A stretch of 64,000 bases of DNA from Natrialba magadii ATCC 43099 (GTDB taxonomy: Archaea; Halobacteriota; Halobacteria; Halobacteriales; Natrialbaceae). The first letter of the stretch is position 1; each line of letters opens with the position of its first letter. The translations under genes and the position numbers were made by a program. Under the pieces are notes generated by a model. That model was not told the origin of the DNA. It ran no database searches and worked only from the letters and a program-made list of their open reading frames with translations. Shown piece after piece: positions 3,875-49,591 of this stretch. Location of the stretch: positions 930,001 to 994,000 of the forward strand of contig NC_013922.1 in the NCBI RefSeq assembly GCF_000025625.1. The letters run 5' to 3'.

Positions 3875-4078
3875 GGTGAGCACGCCTCCGGTCTCGGAGG
3901 CCGGATCGACCGACTCTGCACGAGTTCCGTCATACTCCATCGCTCGTCACTCGTCGTGCGGTATGCAAAAGGATACTGATACGCTGGTTTGGTGTCGCCA
4001 TCGTCGCCGCTGGTTTGCTGTCGCGGGCCGGCGCCACGACACCACTATGCCGCTCGTTTTTGGTCCCGACAATACCGA

Positions 4079-4121
4079 CCTCGACCTCAACCTCAACCTC
4101 AACCTCGATCTCGACCTCGCT
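4079..4121. repeat. hexanucleotide repeat (CTCAAC/CTCGAC)
   Basis: About seven units of CCTCAA or CCTCGA-type hexamers end at the stop codon of aglM. They lie outside any gene I can support. Confidence 0.8.
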
Positions 4122-5580
4122 ACCAGGTCAGACCCTCGTACACCTCGAGGTCGCGCGCATCAACCTCGATCCGCCGGCCGTCGACGACCACTCGCTGCGC
4201 CATTCCATCGAACGACAGCTCGTCGAACTCCGGCCAATCGGTTGCAACGACTGTGCCGTCCGCATCGGCCAGGGCATCCGCCGATGAGGCAGCGAACTCG
4301 AGTGCCCCGTCGAATCGCGTCTCCCCGTACTGCTCTCTGACGTTGTCCATCGCGACCGGATCGTAGGCGACGACGGTCGCACCACGCGTTTGGAGTTCGT
4401 CGATCACGTCGAGCGCGCGGGACTTGCGGATATCGTCGGTGCCGGGCTTGAACGAGAGTCCCAGGACGGCGATCCGCGCGGAATCAAGTGAAACGTGGTC
4501 TGCGAGCAGGGAGACCAGCCGGGTTGGTTGCTCGTCGTTGACTGAGACGACGGCGTCGAGCAAGTCGGGGTCGTAGCCCTGCTCGCGAGCGCCGGCCCGA
4601 AGCGCGGCGACGTCCTTGGGGAAACAGGAGCCACCCCAGCCGAGTCCCGACCGCATGAAGCGGGCCGAGATGCGGTCGTCGAGACCGACCGCCTCGAGGA
4701 CCTCGTAGGCGTCAGCGCCGTACTCCTTGGCGATGTTGCCGAGTTCGTTCACCAGTGAGACCTTCGACGCGAGGAATGCGTTGTTCGCGTACTTGATGAG
4801 TTCGGCCTCGCGCACGTCGGTTTCGACAAGGTCCGTTTCCTCGCGTTCGAGGATGGGCGCGTAGAGGTCGCGAAGCGTCGCAGCAGCGGCGTCGCTCGTC
4901 GCACCGACGACGACCTTGTCGGGTTCGAGGAAGTCCTGCACGGCGGTTCCCATCCGCAGGAATTCGGGGTTCATCGCGAGATCGAGACCCTCACCGATCG
5001 CGATGCCGGACTCGCGCTCGAGGATGGGGCCGACGACGTCTTCGGTGGTGCCGGGGAGGACGGTGCTCTTGACGACGACGAGGTGGTCGTCCTCGTTTGA
5101 TTTCTCTGCGAGTGCGCGGCCGAGTGACTCCGAGCCGGCACGCATCGGCGCGAGGTCGAGACTGCCGTCCTCGGCCTGTGGCGTCGGGAGACAGAGGAAC
5201 GTGACGTCAGTCTCGCGAACGTCGGCGTAGTCGGTCGTCGCGCGCAGGTTCCCGCTCGCATTGGAACCATCGGGGCCGTGGTGGTCGGTGTCGGGACCGT
5301 CGTGGTCGACATCGGGACCGGCGTGTTCTGCATCGGAACCGTCGTGGTCGGCATCAGGACCGGCGTGTTCTGCATCGGAACCGTCGTGGTCGGCATCAGG
5401 ACCGGCGTGTTCGGCGATCCGCTCTGCCAGTCCGGACTCGTGAATCGGTGCCTCGCCGGCGTTGATCGTCTCGACGATTCTCTCGTCGATTTCGACGTTG
5501 ACGACCTCGTGGCCGAGGTCCGCGAGGCAGGCGGCGATCGTCGTTCCGACGTAGCCGCTGCCGATGATAGAGACGTGCAT
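4120..5580 (-). CDS. aglM: UDP-glucose 6-dehydrogenase AglM with internal repeat insertion
   Basis: 486 residues, longer than the usual 425-440. It oxidises UDP-glucose to UDP-glucuronate with two NAD+, supplying the hexuronic acids of the N-linked glycan. Seen: the N-terminal Rossmann motif 'IIGSGYVGTTIAACLA', the central 'EAELIKYANNAFLASKVS' helix, the catalytic cysteine in 'GSCFPKD' and the C-terminal UDP-binding domain 'LGLSFKPGTDDIRKS'. Odd: residues 57-105 are a tandem repeat of EHAGPDADHDGSDA-type 14-mers inserted between 'GLAERI' and 'GNLRATTDYAD', a loop of the NAD domain. It lies between orc1 and aglJ, all on the minus strand. Confidence 0.93.
   Translation of the reverse strand: MHVSIIGSGYVGTTIAACLADLGHEVVNVEIDERIVETINAGEAPIHESGLAERIAEHAGPDADHDGSDAEHAGPDADHDGSDAEHAGPDVDHDGPDTDHHGPDGSNASGNLRATTDYADVRETDVTFLCLPTPQAEDGSLDLAPMRAGSESLGRALAEKSNEDDHLVVVKSTVLPGTTEDVVGPILERESGIAIGEGLDLAMNPEFLRMGTAVQDFLEPDKVVVGATSDAAAATLRDLYAPILEREETDLVETDVREAELIKYANNAFLASKVSLVNELGNIAKEYGADAYEVLEAVGLDDRISARFMRSGLGWGGSCFPKDVAALRAGAREQGYDPDLLDAVVSVNDEQPTRLVSLLADHVSLDSARIAVLGLSFKPGTDDIRKSRALDVIDELQTRGATVVAYDPVAMDNVREQYGETRFDGALEFAASSADALADADGTVVATDWPEFDELSFDGMAQRVVVDGRRIEVDARDLEVYEGLTW
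5262..5412. repeat. 42-nt in-frame minisatellite inside aglM
   Basis: A 42-nt unit (14 codons) is present in two near-perfect and at least one diverged copy, with shorter 15-18-nt subunits (GACCGTCGTGGTCG) inside it. The period is a multiple of three, so the AglM frame is preserved. See the AglM entry. Confidence 0.9.
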
Positions 5581-7360: not shown

Positions 7361-7404
7361 CCCGAGATGGCCCGGTGGTATGGTGGGGAGAAGGAGTGAC
7401 GAGC

Positions 7405-7516
7405 TAGTGCTGTAGAACAAGGAGTGTCGAAATAGCGTTGTAGAACAAGGTGTGGTAAAATAATGCTGTAGAACAAGGGGTGACGAAATAGTGCTGTGGG
7501 AGCACGAGTAGCAGAA
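7405..7516. repeat. 28-nt iteron-like array inside the origin
   Basis: Four adjacent units start at 7405, 7433, 7461 and 7489, exactly 28 nt apart. The first three share TAGNGNTGTAGAACAAGG and a GAAA or AAAA end; the fourth is diverged. They lie between ORB 4 and ORB 5. The core is unlike the ORBs, so a second binding protein or a structural role is possible. Confidence 0.9.
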
Positions 7517-23731: not shown

Positions 23732-25096
23732 TTATGGCGTCTCGGTATCGATATCCGCTGAATTGAGCGCTTTGAAGACGAGCGTGGGGAATCGTGGTTC
23801 GACGGTACTTGGGCGGCGGCCGCTGCCGGTCGTTGGGAGCGGAACGCGTTCGATAACGCCGCGGTCGGCGAGTTCGTAGAGGAACCGTTTGACTGTCCCG
23901 TCGGTGAGTGTCGACCGCTCGGCGATGGCCACCGAAACCTCACGAATCGGTCTGTCTGCGGTGTCGACGTCGACGAGGTGTGAGAGCACTTGCTGGCGTG
24001 TGTCAGACAGTGCGAGCGTCCGGTCAATGTGAACGCCGTTGGCGGGGACCGCGTTGCGGGCGGCTTCGAGATGGGCGGTTTCGATCCGGGTTGCGTCGTC
24101 GTCGGCCGCAAGGCAGGCGGCACTAAAGAGCGCGGCGAGTGCGTCGTGTGCGTTGCCGTCGGCCCAGATGGCGAGTTCGCGCACGGATTCGTGGTCGAGG
24201 ACGCCTGCGGCGAGCCCGGTGGAGGCGCGGTCGGTGATGACGTCGACGAGTTCGTGGTGACGGTATGCTGGGACGGTGACGACCGAACCCAGGGGCTGTG
24301 GTTGTGACTGTGGCTGTGGCTGTGATGGTGACGACGACTGTGATGGTGACTGTGATGGTGACTGTGACTGTGACTGTGACGGTGGCTGTGTTTCGTCATC
24401 GCTGGTCGTCGTTCCGTTCTCGCTGGTATCAGTCTCGTTTTCGCCCTCGAACTGGTCTGCACCGCTGTTATCCTCGGAGCGAGTGGGCTGCCAGTTTGCG
24501 GGAGTCGACTGGCCAACCGCCATCGTCGCGACACTATCACTGACTGGTTCGAGGAGCTCCCTGGCTCGCTCGTACCGCAACGTTTCGGGCTCGTCGTGGT
24601 GGTCGATGGCGACGACAGCCCGACGGTCGTGGCGCGCGAGGCGTGCGGTCAGACGCTCTCGAAGGTCGTCCGTTCCGATGCCGCTCTCGGGAACCGGCTC
24701 TGCGGAAATAACCGAGAGAACGGCCTGGTAGAACGCGAAGGCGCTCTCGACGCGGCGGCCGTCGACGTAGACGAACCAGGTCACCGGGCCGTTGCTGCCC
24801 GCACGCGTCGTTGTCGCGATCGATCGACTCGATTCGCCGAGTCGGTCGTTGAGCGCATCGAACAGCGCGGTGACGATGGCAGACGTTCCGGATCCCGGCG
24901 GGCCGACGACAGCCACCGGCTCCGGCAGGTCGCCATCGAAGACGGGCTCGAGTTCGTCCAGCAGCTGTTCCAGGACGGGACCGCGCCCGACCGGTTCCGG
25001 GCGGTGGACGACGGGACTCAGGTGGTCGCGGTCGACCACCACCGTCCGTCCCTGGTGTGCCGACCGTCGTCGTGCGATACGCTCTTGTAAATTCAT
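23732..25096 (-). CDS. Orc1/Cdc6-like protein with degenerate ATPase site
   Basis: 454 residues with Orc1/Cdc6 layout: an AAA+ part, a lid 'GNAHDALAALFSAACLA' (compare GDARRAL in active Orc1) and a C-terminal winged helix ('VSVAIAERSTLTDGTVKRFLYELADRG', about 388-413). The Walker A reads GPPGSGTS (65-72), Thr replacing the invariant Lys; Walker B reads AVVAIDHHDE, and the sensor-2 Arg is His. It probably binds nucleotide poorly, so it is more likely a DNA-binding or scaffold protein than an initiator. Residues 212-268 are a Ser/Gln/Pro repeat linker. The start codon overlaps the glpC stop (TAATG). No ORB repeats are visible beside it. Confidence 0.8.
   Translation of the reverse strand: MNLQERIARRRSAHQGRTVVVDRDHLSPVVHRPEPVGRGPVLEQLLDELEPVFDGDLPEPVAVVGPPGSGTSAIVTALFDALNDRLGESSRSIATTTRAGSNGPVTWFVYVDGRRVESAFAFYQAVLSVISAEPVPESGIGTDDLRERLTARLARHDRRAVVAIDHHDEPETLRYERARELLEPVSDSVATMAVGQSTPANWQPTRSEDNSGADQFEGENETDTSENGTTTSDDETQPPSQSQSQSPSQSPSQSSSPSQPQPQSQPQPLGSVVTVPAYRHHELVDVITDRASTGLAAGVLDHESVRELAIWADGNAHDALAALFSAACLAADDDATRIETAHLEAARNAVPANGVHIDRTLALSDTRQQVLSHLVDVDTADRPIREVSVAIAERSTLTDGTVKRFLYELADRGVIERVPLPTTGSGRRPSTVEPRFPTLVFKALNSADIDTETP
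24296..24392. repeat. hexamer repeat encoding a Gln/Ser/Pro linker in the Orc1-like gene
   Basis: Units of TGTGAC/TGTGGC/GGTGAC type, in frame, encode residues about 236-268 on the minus strand. Confidence 0.9.
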
Positions 25097-26532
25097 TAGT
25101 TCGACTCCGTCGCTGTCGTGGTTCCCGCGTCTGCGTTCGAGCCACTCCCGGCCCCGCTCTCGGCTCTGTCACCACCAAGAGCCGCCTCGAGTACCTCGAG
25201 CGTGTGCTTGATTTCGTAGCCGGTGCCGTGTTCCATCTGCATCGAACAGGTCGGACACTCCGTCAGGCCGGTCTCGGCCTCGGCTGCGTCCATATGCTCG
25301 AACATCTCCTCGCCGATCTTCATCGACGTCTCGTAGTTCTCTGCCTTCCACCCGTAGGTGCCCGAGATGCCCGAACAGGAGTCTCCCACGTCTTGGGCGT
25401 CGATGCCGTCGATCGCATCCATCACTTCGATCGTCTGTCCATCGAGTCCCTGGTTACGTGAATGACACGGTGCGTGATATGCTAGTTCGTCGAACTCGTC
25501 GCCGACGGCCGTGTCCTCGAGTGCACCCGTCAGATCCTCGTGGACGCGGAGGTACTCGACGGCGTCCCAGGTGTTCGCGGCGACGGTCTCGGTGTCCTCG
25601 AAGTCGAACAGTTCGGGGTACTCCTGGCGGATCGACATCGAGCAGGAGCTACACGACGCAATGACGGCGGCTCCGTCCTCGATGGCTGCGGCGAGTTCGC
25701 GGACGTTCGTCTCGGCCGCACGGCGGGCGTCCTCGAGCATGCCGTTTGCGAACATCGGGGTACCGGAGCAGGACTGTTCGGGGACCATGACCTCGTAGCC
25801 GAAGTGTTCGTAGACGCGCACGAGTGCCTTCGCGACCTCGGAGGTGTTGTAGTTCGAGTAGCAGCCGTGGAAGTAGGCGATACGCTTGTCCTCGTTTTCG
25901 ACTTTTGCCCCGCCTCTGTCCGTCCACCACTCACGGAACGTCTCCGTCGCGAACTCGGGGAACTCGCGCTCGCTCGTGATTCCCAGAGTCTTCTCGCCGA
26001 GCCACTTCGTGACCGAGAGCCCCATCACGACGTTCGCCGTTCGCGGGAACATCGACGCCAGCGGGGCGAGACGGCGGTAGTTCGCGAGCAGCCGGTTGCG
26101 AAGGTACTCGCGCGAGAATTTGCTCATGTTCTCCTCGACGTACTCCGCCCGCGCCGTGTTGTGCATCTGCGAGAGCGGGACACTCGAGGGACAGGCACTA
26201 TCACAGCGCATGCAGTTCGAACACTTCATCACCGAGTCGTCGATGTCGTGATCGTCCTGGCGCTTTAGCCGCCACTGCTCCGGCCCCTGGAACTTCGGTC
26301 CGGGGAACTCGTCGTCGACCTCGGCGACGGGGCAGTTCGTGTCGCAGGTCGAGCACTTGTAACAGTTGTCCGCGCCCGGCCGGAGGTCCATCTCCTCGGC
26401 CTCGGGGAAGACCTGGACGGGTTCGAACTCGTCGTTACCGCTGTCGCTGTCACTGTCGCTCCCGTCTGCACCGCCAGTGCTCGGTTGCTCGCCCGGTGCG
26501 CCGTCGTCGATCCGTCGCTGTGCATCACTCAT
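25096..26532 (-). CDS. glpC: anaerobic glycerol-3-phosphate dehydrogenase subunit C
   Basis: 478 residues. The membrane-anchoring electron-transfer subunit that passes electrons from GlpA to the quinone pool. Seen: two 4Fe-4S motifs ('CYKCSTCDTNCPV' and 'CSNCMRCDSACPS') and two CCG-like cysteine-rich domains ('HGCYSNYNT...CSGTPM' and 'HAPCHSRNQG...CSGISGTYG'). The ATG at 26532 is chosen; the frame is open to 26847, but that part is Arg/Ser-rich and overlaps glpB. Both ends carry Ser/Asp or Gly/Ser-rich low-complexity tails. It is the third gene of glpABC. Confidence 0.93.
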   Translation of the reverse strand: MSDAQRRIDDGAPGEQPSTGGADGSDSDSDSGNDEFEPVQVFPEAEEMDLRPGADNCYKCSTCDTNCPVAEVDDEFPGPKFQGPEQWRLKRQDDHDIDDSVMKCSNCMRCDSACPSSVPLSQMHNTARAEYVEENMSKFSREYLRNRLLANYRRLAPLASMFPRTANVVMGLSVTKWLGEKTLGITSEREFPEFATETFREWWTDRGGAKVENEDKRIAYFHGCYSNYNTSEVAKALVRVYEHFGYEVMVPEQSCSGTPMFANGMLEDARRAAETNVRELAAAIEDGAAVIASCSSCSMSIRQEYPELFDFEDTETVAANTWDAVEYLRVHEDLTGALEDTAVGDEFDELAYHAPCHSRNQGLDGQTIEVMDAIDGIDAQDVGDSCSGISGTYGWKAENYETSMKIGEEMFEHMDAAEAETGLTECPTCSMQMEHGTGYEIKHTLEVLEAALGGDRAESGAGSGSNADAGTTTATESN

Positions 26533-33519: not shown

Positions 33520-33597
33520 ACTCGCAGCCAACAGTACTCGCAGCCAACAGTACTCGCAGCCAACAGTACTCGCAGCCAACAGTACTCGCAGCCAACA
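33520..33597. repeat. 16-nt tandem repeat, about 4.8 copies
   Basis: The unit ACTCGCAGCCAACAGT starts at 33520, 33536, 33552, 33568 and 33584, exactly 16 nt apart. It lies between the SDR gene and the transducer gene, so it is intergenic. Confidence 0.95.
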
Positions 33598-33704
33598 CGT
33601 ACTGACACTGCACACACGCGCTCTCCCAGCACACCACGGAAAACAGTTCCTCGAGAACCATCGGTAAAACTCCGCTTCCGACACCAATCGGAGCGGAAGT
33701 TCAG

Positions 33705-36671
33705 CTACGTACTCGAGTCGGTTGTGTCTGCGGCCTGCTCCGCAGCCTCGTTCTCGGTGTCGTCCTCAGCGCCGTCTTCGGCGTTGTCTGCAGGTTCTGT
33801 GTCGTCGGGTTCGCCGTCATCGTCGCTACCGTTGTCATCGTCGCTACCGTTGTCACCGTCGCTACCGTTGTCGCCGTCGTCACCGTCATCGTCGCTCCCA
33901 CTCTCATCACCCCCATCACTCTCTTCGTCACCTTCGAGTCCGGACTCGAGTGCACTCGGTTCCGACTCGTTCTCGCCAGCGGGGAGTGCGTGAGGGGCGT
34001 CGTCATCGTCGCTCTCTGCGCGTTCTCCGCCCGCATGGCTCTCCCGACCCTCCTCGAGTGCATCCGATTCGCCAGCATCCGCTGGCAGTGGTTCGGGGCC
34101 GTCTGGGTCGACGTACTCGAGTTCGGTGCCGGGCTGGTTGTCGTCGCTGTCGTCGCTGTCGGTGTCGGTGCTGGTGCTGGTGCTGGTGTCGGTCCGCTCG
34201 TCAGTCCCACCCGTCTCACCGTCACCGAGGTCAACAGCGGCTCCGTCGACATCGGTCGTGAACGCGGCGAGTGACTCCTGGAGCGTCACCGACTGCTCGG
34301 AGAGGTCGTCCGCGTTCTCGCTCACAGTCGAAATTGCAGCCGTTTGCTGCTCGACGGCGGCAGCGACGTCGCTCGCCTCGCTCGCCGTCTCGGTGCTGAT
34401 TTCGGTCACGTCGTCGACCATCGTGACCAGATCCTGCGTCGACGTGGCGATGCCGTCGGTTGCGTCGCTGATCTCCTGGACGCCGTGGTCGGCTTCGGTC
34501 ACCTCGGCTTCGATTTCGTGGAACGTCGTCGCGGACTGCTCGACCGTTTCGGTGCCCGCAACGACGTGTTCGCGCATCGTCTCCATCTCGTCGACCGTCT
34601 CGTCGGTCTGGGACTGGACGGTGTCGATGAGCTGGTCGATCTCTGCGGCGGACTCTTTGGTCTCTTCTGCGAGCTGTTTGACCTCGCTGGCGACGACAGC
34701 GAAGCCGTTTCCGGCACGGCTACTGCCACCGTCGCTCGCGCTCGCGCTCGCGTTGCTGGCGTGTGCCGCCTCGATAGAGGCGTTCAACGCCAGAATATTC
34801 GTCTGGTCGGCGATATCCGTGATGACGTCGATAATCTCGTCGATTTCGGCCATCGACTCGTCGAGGTCGCGAATCGACTCGAGTGTCGCCTCGGTTCGCT
34901 CCTCGATCGCTTCCATCTCGCTGACGAGGTCGCCGGCCGACTCGCGGCCGTCGTTGGCGCGCTCGGCCGCGTGCTGTGACGTTTCCGCGAGGGTGTCGGC
35001 GGTCGCTGCAATCTCCTCGATATTCGCGGAGATTCCCTGCACCTCGCCGGAGATGGTCTCCATGCGCTCGTGTTGCTGGTCCGCGTAGCCCGTAATCTGC
35101 TGGACGGACTCGCTGACCGTCTCGCTCGTGGACTCGAGTTCGGTCGCGCGAGCCTGGACGTCGTCGGTCGCCTCGGAGACATCGCCGGCGAACGTCGAGA
35201 CGGTGTCAACGGTGTGTTCGAGGTCGTCCAGCATCTCGTTGAACGTGGCGGCGATGTCGGCCATCGGCTCGCTCTCGGTGTCCGGATCGAGGCGCTGGGT
35301 CAGGTCGCCGTCAGCGCAGGTTTGCATGACGGCGCAGTATTCGGTCGCGGTCTGTTCGAGCTGCTCGTTCATCTCCTGGGCGTCCTGGCGGGCGCGTTCT
35401 GCGCGCTCTTTTGCCACTTCGGCCTCTTCGCGAGCCTCGTCGGCCTGTTCTCTGGCCTGTTCTGACTCCTCGCGGGCCTGCTCGGCCTGCGTTCGGGCCT
35501 GTTCGGACTCTTCAATCTGGTCGACCAGCGAGATACGCATGTCGTCGATCGAGCCGTAGAGGCCGCCGATTTCGTCGATACGATCGGATTCGACGGCGGT
35601 ATCGTACTCGCCGTTTTCGATCGCTGCTGCCCGGCCAGAGAGATCGCTGAGCGAGCGGGCCGTGTTTCGACCAAGGACGGTGCCAAACACGCCGATGACG
35701 GCGACGCCGACGAACGTGATCAGTAGTCCGAACTGGGTCGCAGTGTTGGCGAAACCGAGCGCGTTCGCTTCCGTCGTATGCACGAGGACGGTCCAGTCGT
35801 CGCTCGTCGTGTAGTAACCGGCAACGTAGCCGTCCGGATCGAAGTTGTACGGCTCGCTCTGGAGTGTTTCGCTCGGTGCTCCATCGACGCGAAGCGAGCC
35901 GCGGTTCTCGAGTTGGGCTGCCTCGAGGACGCCGTTTCGATCCTCGTAGGAGTCGAGGAACGACAGGGTTTCGTCGTCGCCGTCGTTGCCCAGATAGGCG
36001 TCGTCGCTGACGATCTGTCCGTCTTCGTTCAGGATCGTCACGACAGTTCCCGAGTCCGCAGCCGAGACCATCTCGGTCGAGCGCTCGGAGAGATCGAACG
36101 TGAACACGAGTGCCCCATCACCGCCGTCGACGCCGACGTAGTAGGACACGACTGGGTCTGCGTCCGTGGACAGTCCCAGCTGGTCCGGCATCAGGTACGG
36201 CTCCGTCTGCTGCACCAGATTCGTCGAGATGTCCTCATCGAGGTCTGCAGTGGCAGGGAACTCGAGTGCATCCAGATCGTCGGCGTCGGAGCCGATGCCC
36301 GTGATGATATCGCCAGATTCCGTGTCGACGTAGAGCGCGTTCATGCGCTCTTCGGGCATGTCGTAGTAAATCTCCTGGAGATAGTCGTCGACCTGTTCTG
36401 GATCGCCGCTATCGGTGACTGGGGCATCTGCCGTCGCAGCGACGAGGTTGTGATTCTGGGCGAGCCAGTTTTCCATGGCAATGCCTTCCTGGTAGGCTGC
36501 GTCCTGGCGCTCCTCGAGGGCGGTTTCTTCGACGTTCTCGGTGAGCAGCGTCGTCGAAACGAGCCCAAGCCCCCCGATCGTGAGCCCGAGGACGAGGAAG
36601 ACAACACCGAACTTCAATGCGTAACTTCGTCTGATGAACGACGGGATGAGACGCCGTCCCTTCCACACCAT
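33705..36671 (-). CDS. halobacterial transducer (methyl-accepting chemotaxis protein)
   Basis: 988 residues. TM1 at about 21-43, a large extracellular Cache-like sensor domain (about 45-305), TM2 at about 310-335, a HAMP segment, a long Glu/Ala/Arg coiled coil (about 385-435) and a signalling domain (about 470-775). The tip hairpin retains 'NILALNASIEAA' and 'GFAVVASEVKQLAEET', but about 12 extra Ala/Ser/Gly-rich residues lie between them (about 638-657). The C-terminal 200 residues are extremely acidic and repetitive (Asp/Glu/Ser/Gly). It would control CheA and the archaellum motor. The ligand is unknown and no che genes lie nearby. Confidence 0.92.
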   Translation of the reverse strand: MVWKGRRLIPSFIRRSYALKFGVVFLVLGLTIGGLGLVSTTLLTENVEETALEERQDAAYQEGIAMENWLAQNHNLVAATADAPVTDSGDPEQVDDYLQEIYYDMPEERMNALYVDTESGDIITGIGSDADDLDALEFPATADLDEDISTNLVQQTEPYLMPDQLGLSTDADPVVSYYVGVDGGDGALVFTFDLSERSTEMVSAADSGTVVTILNEDGQIVSDDAYLGNDGDDETLSFLDSYEDRNGVLEAAQLENRGSLRVDGAPSETLQSEPYNFDPDGYVAGYYTTSDDWTVLVHTTEANALGFANTATQFGLLITFVGVAVIGVFGTVLGRNTARSLSDLSGRAAAIENGEYDTAVESDRIDEIGGLYGSIDDMRISLVDQIEESEQARTQAEQAREESEQAREQADEAREEAEVAKERAERARQDAQEMNEQLEQTATEYCAVMQTCADGDLTQRLDPDTESEPMADIAATFNEMLDDLEHTVDTVSTFAGDVSEATDDVQARATELESTSETVSESVQQITGYADQQHERMETISGEVQGISANIEEIAATADTLAETSQHAAERANDGRESAGDLVSEMEAIEERTEATLESIRDLDESMAEIDEIIDVITDIADQTNILALNASIEAAHASNASASASDGGSSRAGNGFAVVASEVKQLAEETKESAAEIDQLIDTVQSQTDETVDEMETMREHVVAGTETVEQSATTFHEIEAEVTEADHGVQEISDATDGIATSTQDLVTMVDDVTEISTETASEASDVAAAVEQQTAAISTVSENADDLSEQSVTLQESLAAFTTDVDGAAVDLGDGETGGTDERTDTSTSTSTDTDSDDSDDNQPGTELEYVDPDGPEPLPADAGESDALEEGRESHAGGERAESDDDDAPHALPAGENESEPSALESGLEGDEESDGGDESGSDDDGDDGDNGSDGDNGSDDDNGSDDDGEPDDTEPADNAEDGAEDDTENEAAEQAADTTDSST
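34731..34757. repeat. GCTCGC hexamer repeat in the transducer tip
   Basis: At least four GCTCGC units, in frame, encode the Ala-Ser run within the tip insertion. Confidence 0.85.
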
Positions 36672-43268: not shown

Positions 43269-45362
43269 ATGCGTGCGAGATCGTCGTTCACTGAACGCGA
43301 CGTTCCCCCTCGACGGTCGCTTCTCGCGGCGATACTCGCATGTCTCGTCGTCGCTGCGCTTGCGGTCGGACTCGTTGCGACGCCGGCTGCGGCCCACGCC
43401 TACCTGAGCGAATCGGACCCGGCGAACGGCGAGCAGGTCGACGACGTGCCCGAGGAGGTCACCCTCTTCTTCTCGGGTGATGGTGTCGTCAACGCCGATA
43501 TCACCGTCGAGGGGCCGGACGGTGAGGTCGTCTCGGCTGAACCGGAGATCGATCCCGACGACACGCAGGTCGTGCGCGTGCCGATCGAAGACGCCGACAC
43601 TGAGGGTGGTGCTGACGCGGACGGCGACGACGGTGACGCTGACGGTGCGGATGGCATGTACACCGTCGACTGGGAGGTCCTCGCTGACGACGGCCACACC
43701 ACCTCGGGCTCGTTCTTCTTCGCTGTTGGCGACGAACCGCTCGACCGTGACGCCGTTCTCGAGGGGTACGAAGACGACGAGACGGACGAGTCGGTCCCAC
43801 CCGTCGAAGCAGGTGCAAAAGCGCTGTTGCTCGTCGGCGTCGTCGGTCTGATCGGCATTCCGGCGATCACGACCCTCGCAGTCGGTCCCGTCTTCGCTCG
43901 TGCGGAGCGACGAGAGGCAATCGACCGCCGCCTCACGCGACTACTGGTCGGTGCTGCAGCACTCACGCTCGTCGGCGCGTTCGCACTCGGACTCGCCCGG
44001 AGTACGGCACTGGGACCACTCTCCGTCGAGACGATCACCCAATTTACGGAGACGCCACTCGGTCAGGCCTGGCTCGTCCAGTCCGTCCTCAGCCTCGCGT
44101 TGGTCGGGCTCGCGGTAGCGATGACTCGTAGACGACCTCCCCGTCGCACGTCGCTCGTCGGCACGTTTATCGGGGCGCTCGCCGTCGCGGGCACGATCGC
44201 GTGGACGAGTCACTCGGCGACTGCGATCGACCGATTCCAGGGTGCGGTCGTCGATTTCGTCCACCTCGTCGGTGCCGGACTCTGGGTGGGTGGCCTGGTC
44301 GTCCTCGCGTTCGTCGTCGTTCCCCACGTTCGCGCGGCTGACACCGACGACCGATCCGCGCTCCTCGCACGCACGATCCGCCGGTACTCGGTCCTTGCGC
44401 TCGTCGGCGTCACGCTCGTCGTGACGACAGGACTCGCCCTCGCCTCGTGGCATGTCCCGACTGCTGATGGTCTTACGGACACGTTCTACGGCCTCACACT
44501 GCTCGCGAAACTGGTTCTCATCGCCGCCGCGCTCGCACTCGGCGGCATCACCCGATTCGTCCTCCTGGGCCGACTCGAGTCGGCCCACGAAACTGGGACG
44601 ACTGGCGACGTACGGCCGGCGAGCACGGACGGCGGCGTCGACCGGGACGACGACTTCACCACGGGCTCTCGAATTGCTCACGCTGTTCGACTCGAGGTCG
44701 CACTCTTGATCGTCGTCGTGCTCCTCTCGGGTGTACTCACGTCTGCACCGACGGCCGCGGTTGCGGGCGTCGATGACGAAGTCACCGAGGCAACGATCGA
44801 GTACGAGTACGACGACGTGCTCGTCGAGGTGACGGCGCTCCCGGTCGTCGACGCAACGAACGAGTCGTTCACGCTCGAGGTGGACGAGCCGATCGTCTTC
44901 GAGGTCACGTTCCTCGACGACGAGGAGCCGGTTGAGTCGGACCAATCCGTCCGGTTGCTTGCAAGCAGCGAGGAGGGCACGGAGATGGAAGTCGGACTCG
45001 AAGCCCACGACGACGGCACGTACGCGACGGTTCAACCCCTTCCCGACGAGGGTCACTGGGATCTTCGCGTGACCGGCGCTCCCGACGGATCGTACGTGAG
45101 CGAGTGGATCGATGCAACTGCCGTTGCAGCGGGTAGTCACGACGAGCACGAGCACGATCATGACGACGAGCACAACGGCCACGATCACGACCACGATGAC
45201 CACGCAGACCATGCCCACGACGAGCCCGCGGATCAGGCCCACGACGATCACGACTCGAGTCCCGACACCGCCTTCGCGACGCTGTTGCAGTTCGGGGCCG
45301 TCGCCATCGCTGTCGTCGGCTCGGTTGCCGTCGTGATCGAGGCAACTCGCTTCCGCGAGTGA
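43269..45362 (+). CDS. CopC-CopD fusion, copper resistance/uptake protein
   Basis: 697 residues. A signal peptide (about 15-42) leads to a CopC-like domain beginning 'AHAYLSESDPANGEQV', its first mature His being a copper ligand in CopC, and including 'DDGHTTSGSFFFAVG'. An Asp/Gly-rich insert lies at about 115-130. A CopD-type membrane domain of 8 helices follows (about 180-470, with 'WTSHSATAIDRFQGAVVDFVHLVGAGLWVGG'), then an extracellular beta domain, a His/Asp-rich stretch (about 635-675) that could chelate copper, and a last helix. It lies 3 nt after the lipoprotein gene, so the two form an operon. Confidence 0.87.
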   Translation: MRARSSFTERDVPPRRSLLAAILACLVVAALAVGLVATPAAAHAYLSESDPANGEQVDDVPEEVTLFFSGDGVVNADITVEGPDGEVVSAEPEIDPDDTQVVRVPIEDADTEGGADADGDDGDADGADGMYTVDWEVLADDGHTTSGSFFFAVGDEPLDRDAVLEGYEDDETDESVPPVEAGAKALLLVGVVGLIGIPAITTLAVGPVFARAERREAIDRRLTRLLVGAAALTLVGAFALGLARSTALGPLSVETITQFTETPLGQAWLVQSVLSLALVGLAVAMTRRRPPRRTSLVGTFIGALAVAGTIAWTSHSATAIDRFQGAVVDFVHLVGAGLWVGGLVVLAFVVVPHVRAADTDDRSALLARTIRRYSVLALVGVTLVVTTGLALASWHVPTADGLTDTFYGLTLLAKLVLIAAALALGGITRFVLLGRLESAHETGTTGDVRPASTDGGVDRDDDFTTGSRIAHAVRLEVALLIVVVLLSGVLTSAPTAAVAGVDDEVTEATIEYEYDDVLVEVTALPVVDATNESFTLEVDEPIVFEVTFLDDEEPVESDQSVRLLASSEEGTEMEVGLEAHDDGTYATVQPLPDEGHWDLRVTGAPDGSYVSEWIDATAVAAGSHDEHEHDHDDEHNGHDHDHDDHADHAHDEPADQAHDDHDSSPDTAFATLLQFGAVAIAVVGSVAVVIEATRFRE

Positions 45363-49016: not shown

Positions 49017-49559
49017 TTACGACGGTGTCGGCGGCAGCATCGCCTCGTCCATCCAGAACGACTTGACGGCCTTCCCGAGCGAGGCGAACTCGCCCGGTCC
49101 GTTCGGCTTCGTGAGGTAGGCGTTCGCGCATAGGTCGTAACTCCTGGCGATATCCTCGGTCGCCTCCGAACTCGTTAGCACGATAATAGGTAACGATGCG
49201 AGATCGGGGTCGCATCGAACCTCCTCGAGTACCTCGAAGCCGCTCGTTCGAGGTAGGTTGAGATCGAGCAAGACCAGGTCGACGGGAAGTGCTGAGTCGG
49301 TGTCGGTCTCGGCGTTCGAGTCCGAATCCGAGTCCGAATCCGAGTCCGAGTCACCCTCACTCTCAGTGTCAGCCCCGTCTCCGACGCGCTCTCGAAGGAT
49401 AGCAAGCGCTTCGTCACCGTCGCGGGCGGTGTGAAACGTCGTCTCGATATCGACGTCGCGAAACGCTTCCTGCGTGAGTCGGACGTCACCGGGGTTGTCC
49501 TCGACTAACAGTATGTGTACCGACTTGCGTGTCGATGGGGAGGAAGATTTCGTACTCAC
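49017..49559 (-). CDS. response regulator receiver protein with Ser-Asp repeat insertion
   Basis: 180 residues, a receiver-only response regulator of the Rcp1-like kind. Seen: the acid pair in 'LLVEDNPGDVRLTQEAF', the phosphorylated Asp in 'DLVLLDLNLPRTSGFEVL', 'PIIVLTSSEA' with Thr/Ser and the Lys in 'NAYLTKPN'. Odd: about 32 residues (62-93, mostly Ser-Asp and Glu-Thr pairs, from a hexamer DNA repeat) are inserted between helix 2 and the strand bearing the phosphorylated Asp, where family members are usually ungapped. It has no output domain; the kinase is not in this window. Confidence 0.9.
   Translation of the reverse strand: MSTKSSSPSTRKSVHILLVEDNPGDVRLTQEAFRDVDIETTFHTARDGDEALAILRERVGDGADTESEGDSDSDSDSDSDSNAETDTDSALPVDLVLLDLNLPRTSGFEVLEEVRCDPDLASLPIIVLTSSEATEDIARSYDLCANAYLTKPNGPGEFASLGKAVKSFWMDEAMLPPTPS
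49300..49366. repeat. hexamer repeat in the response regulator gene
   Basis: TCCGAATCCGAG-like hexamers, in frame, encode Ser-Asp and Glu/Thr pairs. Confidence 0.9.
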
Positions 49560-49591
49560 AGGTTACTAGCACAAAATCGGACTAGTCGGTT

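Follow-up and report, generated by a model that had tools for sequence, protein, structure and literature searches.

In Natrialba magadii ATCC 43099, the gene for an AglM-type UDP-glucose 6-dehydrogenase carries a tandem repeat in the part that encodes its NAD domain, and this raises the question whether the repeat serves as a switch by which the surface glycan is varied, or is one product among many of a process acting on the whole genome. The gene lies in the window analysed here, a stretch of 64,000 nucleotides (positions 930,001 to 994,000 of NC_013922.1). The original prediction favoured the former view and proposed that slippage of a 42-nt minisatellite changes the length and perhaps the activity of AglM, and thereby the supply of UDP-glucuronate. 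We argue that the aglM array is probably a striking example of genome-wide, near-neutral in-frame loop expansion and not a dedicated glycan switch. None of the papers found discusses the N. magadii AglM insert.

The aglM gene and its repeat array

The N. magadii genome analysed here comprises 4,443,643 bp in four contigs, and the published size for ATCC 43099 is likewise 4,443,643 bp (PMC3403918). The Pfam domains UDPG_MGDP_dh_N, UDPG_MGDP_dh and UDPG_MGDP_dh_C were found in that order in the encoded protein, each above its gathering score, and among solved structures both sequence comparison and fold comparison (Foldseek) ranked the UDP-glucose dehydrogenase of Pyrobaculum islandicum (3vtf) first. 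With the AglM of haloarchaeal N-glycosylation (NF041297; Haloferax volcanii AglM) the protein shares full-length homology, all three domains, the NAD motif GSGYVG and the catalytic Cys motif GWGGSCFPKD, and it differs by a 49-residue repeat insertion in the NAD domain, which breaks the family match in two. Against NF041297 the protein scored 664.8 bits, just below the equivalog cutoff of 670, while two short-loop orthologues scored 680.7 and 685.2 and that of Natrialba sp. SSL1, which has an intermediate loop, 666.7; the shortfall thus tracks the length of the insert. Identity to the Natrialba orthologues is 85-95% over the alignment. We named the protein AglM from its 94-95% identity to orthologues and from synteny, and not from the cutoff. 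As the original prediction had stated, the catalytic and nucleotide-binding motifs are intact: GSGYVGTT, PTP and GWGGSCFPKD are invariant in the orthologue alignment, as are G7, G9, G12, C319, K322 and D323 across 36 sequences. N. magadii AglM should still make UDP-glucuronate. Glycosyltransferase, nucleotidyltransferase, GlmS-like and flippase-like genes surround aglM, making up a glycosylation gene neighbourhood, and the well-matched neighbours have the same lengths in N. magadii and N. hulunbeirensis (glycosyltransferase 360/360, Cdc6 509/509, nucleotidyltransferase 253/253). Right after the aglM stop codon and before the next glycosyltransferase gene we noticed a hexanucleotide array, AGGTCG/AGGTTG on the minus strand, with about seven copies (4076-4119).

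TRF reported the repeat with period 42, 2.9 copies and 96% match at 5291-5412, and in a fuller call with period 21 and 7.0 copies at 5268-5415. On the coding strand, from 5412 down to 5266, the units read EHAGPDA, DHDGSDA, EHAGPDA, DHDGSDA, EHAGPDV, DHDGPDT and DHHGPDG. Units of the type EHAGPDx alternate with DHDGSDx or DHDGPDx, which gives a super-unit of 42 nt, so that the array can be written as three 42-mers and one 21-mer. The predicted period of 42 nt therefore holds for the super-unit, and the basic unit is 21 nt (7 residues). The first and second 42-mers are identical (42/42), which suggests that the last duplication is recent; the first and third agree at 36/42 positions. The longest stretch of aglM to be repeated exactly measures 56 nt, and 200 codon shuffles of the gene never gave more than 14, which shows that the array is not due to chance. 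Being head-to-tail, in frame and beyond chance, it is a genuine coding minisatellite, as had been proposed. When the 33-nt core of the unit was searched with up to three mismatches, three sites were obtained, all in aglM, and none elsewhere in N. magadii or in 124 other genomes of the family; this confinement to aglM among 125 family genomes ruled out that the repeat is mobile or dispersed. Acidic residues make up 35% of the insert, which is devoid of Lys and Arg, and 19% of the remaining protein. The net charge of the insert is -17; it adds 17 acidic residues and contains 8 His in 48 residues.

Table 1. Features of aglM and repeat-encoded insertions in other N. magadii genes. Positions refer to the window, except those preceded by a locus label (L143, L144, L145, L150).
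Feature	Position	Strand	Evidence or remark
aglM-type UDP-glucose 6-dehydrogenase, 486 aa	4123..5580	-	stop codon 4120-4122
Seven tandem 21-nt units (7 aa each), loop insertion, residues 57-104/105	~5266..5412	-	TRF and unit comparison
Two identical 42-nt super-units (EHAGPDADHDGSDA twice), most recent duplication	5329..5412	-	42/42 identity
Non-repeat tail SNASGNL; (N)ASGNL common to two near relatives, marks older short insertion	5245..5265	-	N. chahannaoensis GPNASGNL, N. hulunbeirensis PDASGNL, SSL1 PSMSGNL, N. aegyptia TNL
Ancestral helix end (A)EHAG, in nearly all relatives; start of first repeat unit	5401..5415	-	relatives' sequences
Cdc6-like ATPase, long Pro/Ser/Gln-rich repeat insert between AAA domain and lid	23735-25168	-	absent in N. 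aegyptia, different in N. hulunbeirensis
DNA ligase, repeat-encoded loop insertion	L143:232-2061		short or absent in congeners
Arginase-family enzyme, repeat-encoded loop insertion	L144:18911-19963		short or absent in congeners
Aminotransferase, repeat-encoded loop insertion	L145:14446-15594		short or absent in congeners
P450, repeat-encoded loop insertion	L150:3272-4846		short or absent in congeners

Place of the loop in AglM and its length among relatives

We modelled AglM with AlphaFold2 from 36 orthologues. Residues 64-107, between helix 51-58 and strand 112-115, had pLDDT below 50 and almost no secondary structure, and the rest of the NAD domain was mostly confident, including the fold flanking the loop. 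The cofactor motifs (G7-x-G9-x-x-G12, the acidic end of strand 2, and P132-T133-P134) are at the C-terminal ends of strands. By the topology of the Rossmann fold, a loop that runs from a helix end to a strand start should lie at the edge of the sheet opposite the cofactor, and such a site would tolerate changes in length for that reason. The insert is thus an acidic, His-containing surface loop, disordered according to the model. The Haloferax AglM is a dodecamer (PMC5041007).

The original prediction held that the repeats separate two segments that are normally adjacent, and alignment to other AglM proteins bears this out, as AERIAEHAG and NLRATTDY adjoin, or nearly so, in almost all relatives. 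In N. aegyptia, N. asiatica and N. taiwanensis, as in most of the haloarchaeal AglMs examined, the loop between the conserved ESGL and LRATTDY spans 11 residues, a count from which homologues with a variant loop-end motif such as ATTEY were partly left out by the automatic measurement; two Natrinema homologues with ATTEY in place of ATTDY have an 11-residue loop by eye. A longer loop is present in N. hulunbeirensis, with 15 residues (EHAGPDASGNL), in N. chahannaoensis, with 18 (EHAGSDGPNASGNL), in Natrialba sp. SSL1, with 25 (DHAGPDADHADSDGPSMSGNL, two units), and in N. magadii, with 60. A tree computed from the gap-free columns alone unites the four in a supported clade (95/98), and within Natrialba the extension is confined to them. 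N. hulunbeirensis and N. chahannaoensis are haloalkaliphiles like N. magadii; the neutrophiles are N. aegyptia, N. asiatica and N. taiwanensis. Since the loop differs in length from one sister species to the next, the insertion is neither ancient nor fixed in the genus; the original prediction had named an ancient and fixed insertion as a finding that would speak against it. The two units of SSL1 plausibly represent an intermediate stage. The first repeat unit of N. magadii appears to have been copied from the ancestral EHAG helix end; that it starts with EHAG, and that the (N)ASGNL tail is common to two relatives, suggests that the insert arose from sequence already in place and did not come from elsewhere. 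At the same place, divergent Halorubrum, Natrinema and Haloterrigena homologues carry a separate insertion without repeats (EDGTGRL/ADGTGRL type, 15 residues), which implies that the site tolerates small insertions elsewhere too.

Repeat-encoded loops in other proteins of N. magadii

Several arrays of N. magadii fall inside conserved domains. The segment concerned has 61 residues in the DNA ligase of N. magadii against 26-43 in congeners, 51 against 23-27 in an arginase-family enzyme, 51 against 31-33 in an aminotransferase, and 66 against 30 in a P450, for which the comparison is with more distant P450 homologues only (about 50-62% identical). These four enzymes were picked for carrying arrays in N. 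magadii, hence the uniform direction of the comparison is partly ascertainment. The inserts differ in chemistry, being rich in Ser/Asn/Thr in the arginase-family enzyme, Gly/Asn/Ser in the ligase and Pro/Ser/Gln in the Cdc6-like ATPase. The same growth in all five proteins points to a genome-wide process that acts without regard to glycans.

Other repeats were also noticed in the window. A 28-nt array with 4.6 copies and 99% match is present at 100-228, and another with 3.8 copies and about 78% match at 7391-7497, near the Cdc6 gene, where the sequence is apparently non-coding. A response regulator (49020-49562, minus strand) has a run of (Asp-Ser)6 inside its receiver domain, and a CopC-CopD fusion (43269-45359, plus strand) ends in a long C-terminal tail that is rich in His and Asp, consists of imperfect repeats and possibly binds metal. 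A chemotaxis transducer (33708-36671, minus strand) contains a 42-nt heptad-like repeat after HAMP and Asp/Gly/Asn/Ser repeats in its tail, and a 16-nt array (33520-33603) follows just past its end.

Array density can be compared free of the ascertainment that affects the four enzymes. We counted as strong arrays those with a TRF score of at least 100, at least 2.3 copies and a period of 9-120. Twenty 20-kb samples of N. magadii (400 kb) yielded 26, or about 65 per Mb, and in 21 of them the period is divisible by three. The same filter gave 2 arrays for N. hulunbeirensis and 1 for N. aegyptia in 400 kb each (2-5 per Mb), in draft genomes (congeners 50-110 contigs) where arrays are possibly collapsed and under-represented, and 2-5 per 200-kb sample (10-25 per Mb) for four closed genomes of the family; all these densities refer to the samples and not to whole genomes. 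The repeat-richness of N. magadii is already known from surveys: in a survey of intragenic tandem repeats of prokaryotes (PMC6749651), only two Halobacteria exceed 20 satellites and N. magadii is one of them, and most repeats of this class are stated to have lengths divisible by three. The aglM array is like the satellites described there in that its unit is a multiple of three and it is intragenic, species-specific and of few copies, but differs in being located inside the catalytic core domain of a conserved metabolic enzyme and not in a surface or structural repeat protein. Loss of mismatch repair was considered as a cause of the expansion and rejected, as MutS and MutL homologues were found in all seven Natrialba genomes; a simple loss of repair need not be invoked.

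Origin and meaning of the AglM loop

Taken together, these observations make it likely that the AglM loop grew by in-frame tandem duplication at a tolerant site, as part of a genome-wide and in all likelihood near-neutral process. A haloalkaliphilic Natrialba lineage would first have gained a short extension of about 4-7 residues where the helix leads into the third strand of the Rossmann domain. In a second step, slippage during replication or unequal recombination may have copied a 21-nt EHAGPDA/DHDGSDA segment in frame, and later duplication of the 42-nt doublet would have led to the seven copies of N. magadii. Purifying selection would remove frameshifts, basic residues and disruptive insertions, so that only in-frame, hydrophilic and acidic growth remains. 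The functional effect of the insert is probably small.

That the insert is consistently acidic or polar could be a sign of positive selection rather than of neutrality. In that case the loop would have been selected in a haloalkaliphile of soda lakes because it improves solubility, the stability of the oligomer or the binding of metal, a reading that is in keeping with the net charge of -17, the want of basic residues and the 8 His in 48 residues, and with the restriction of the extension, within the genus, to the clade of N. magadii, N. hulunbeirensis, N. chahannaoensis and SSL1. Surface acidity has also been tied to salt dependence for haloarchaeal UDP-glucose dehydrogenases (PMC5041007). 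However, three relatives of the same clade manage with 15-25 residues, and the other expansions of N. magadii are of different chemistry. Such unlike compositions fit a mutational tendency better than one chemical purpose, and we regard selection for an acidic loop as unlikely.

The view that aglM is a contingency locus, in which slippage within the population tunes AglM activity, UDP-glucuronate supply and the surface glycan, is very unlikely in our judgement. Two identical 42-mers would favour slippage or recombination, loop length does vary among sister species, and the gene stands within a glycosylation gene neighbourhood. Bacterial simple-sequence-repeat contingency loci act by frameshift or promoter spacing. 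The aglM array resembles them as a tandem repeat inside a surface-glycan-related gene, but its unit is long, of few copies and keeps the frame. Whole units of 21 or 42 nt can indeed be gained or lost without frameshift, as the original prediction recognised, and for this very reason copy change cannot switch the gene off. Moreover, the loop is predicted to be disordered and to lie at the edge of the sheet remote from the cofactor motifs, and DNA ligase, the arginase-family enzyme, aminotransferase, P450 and Cdc6-like ATPase show expansions of the same kind. The part of the original prediction that concerned variation of the surface glycan thus finds no support here. That the copy number reflects a sequencing or assembly artefact is hardly credible, for although assemblies of short repeats can go wrong and the first two copies do not differ, the frame is kept throughout, the copies carry distinct substitutions (42-mers 36-42/42), the array spans just 147 nt, and related shorter insertions are present at the same locus in three separately sequenced species.

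We therefore return to near-neutral in-frame growth as the preferred explanation. A bolder form of it, to which we give only a slender chance, is that the process in N. magadii continues to lengthen, in frame, the exposed loops of housekeeping enzymes, and does so at such a rate that strains or even cells would carry length variants of many core enzymes, AglM included. AglM is a conserved enzyme whose loop has grown in steps across one genus (11, 15, 18, 25 and 60 residues), and other proteins of N. magadii offer parallel cases; together these provide a natural series for measuring the effect of repeat expansion on enzymes. They also advise caution, in that the rest of the genome should be checked before a repeat in a glycan gene is called a phase-variation switch.
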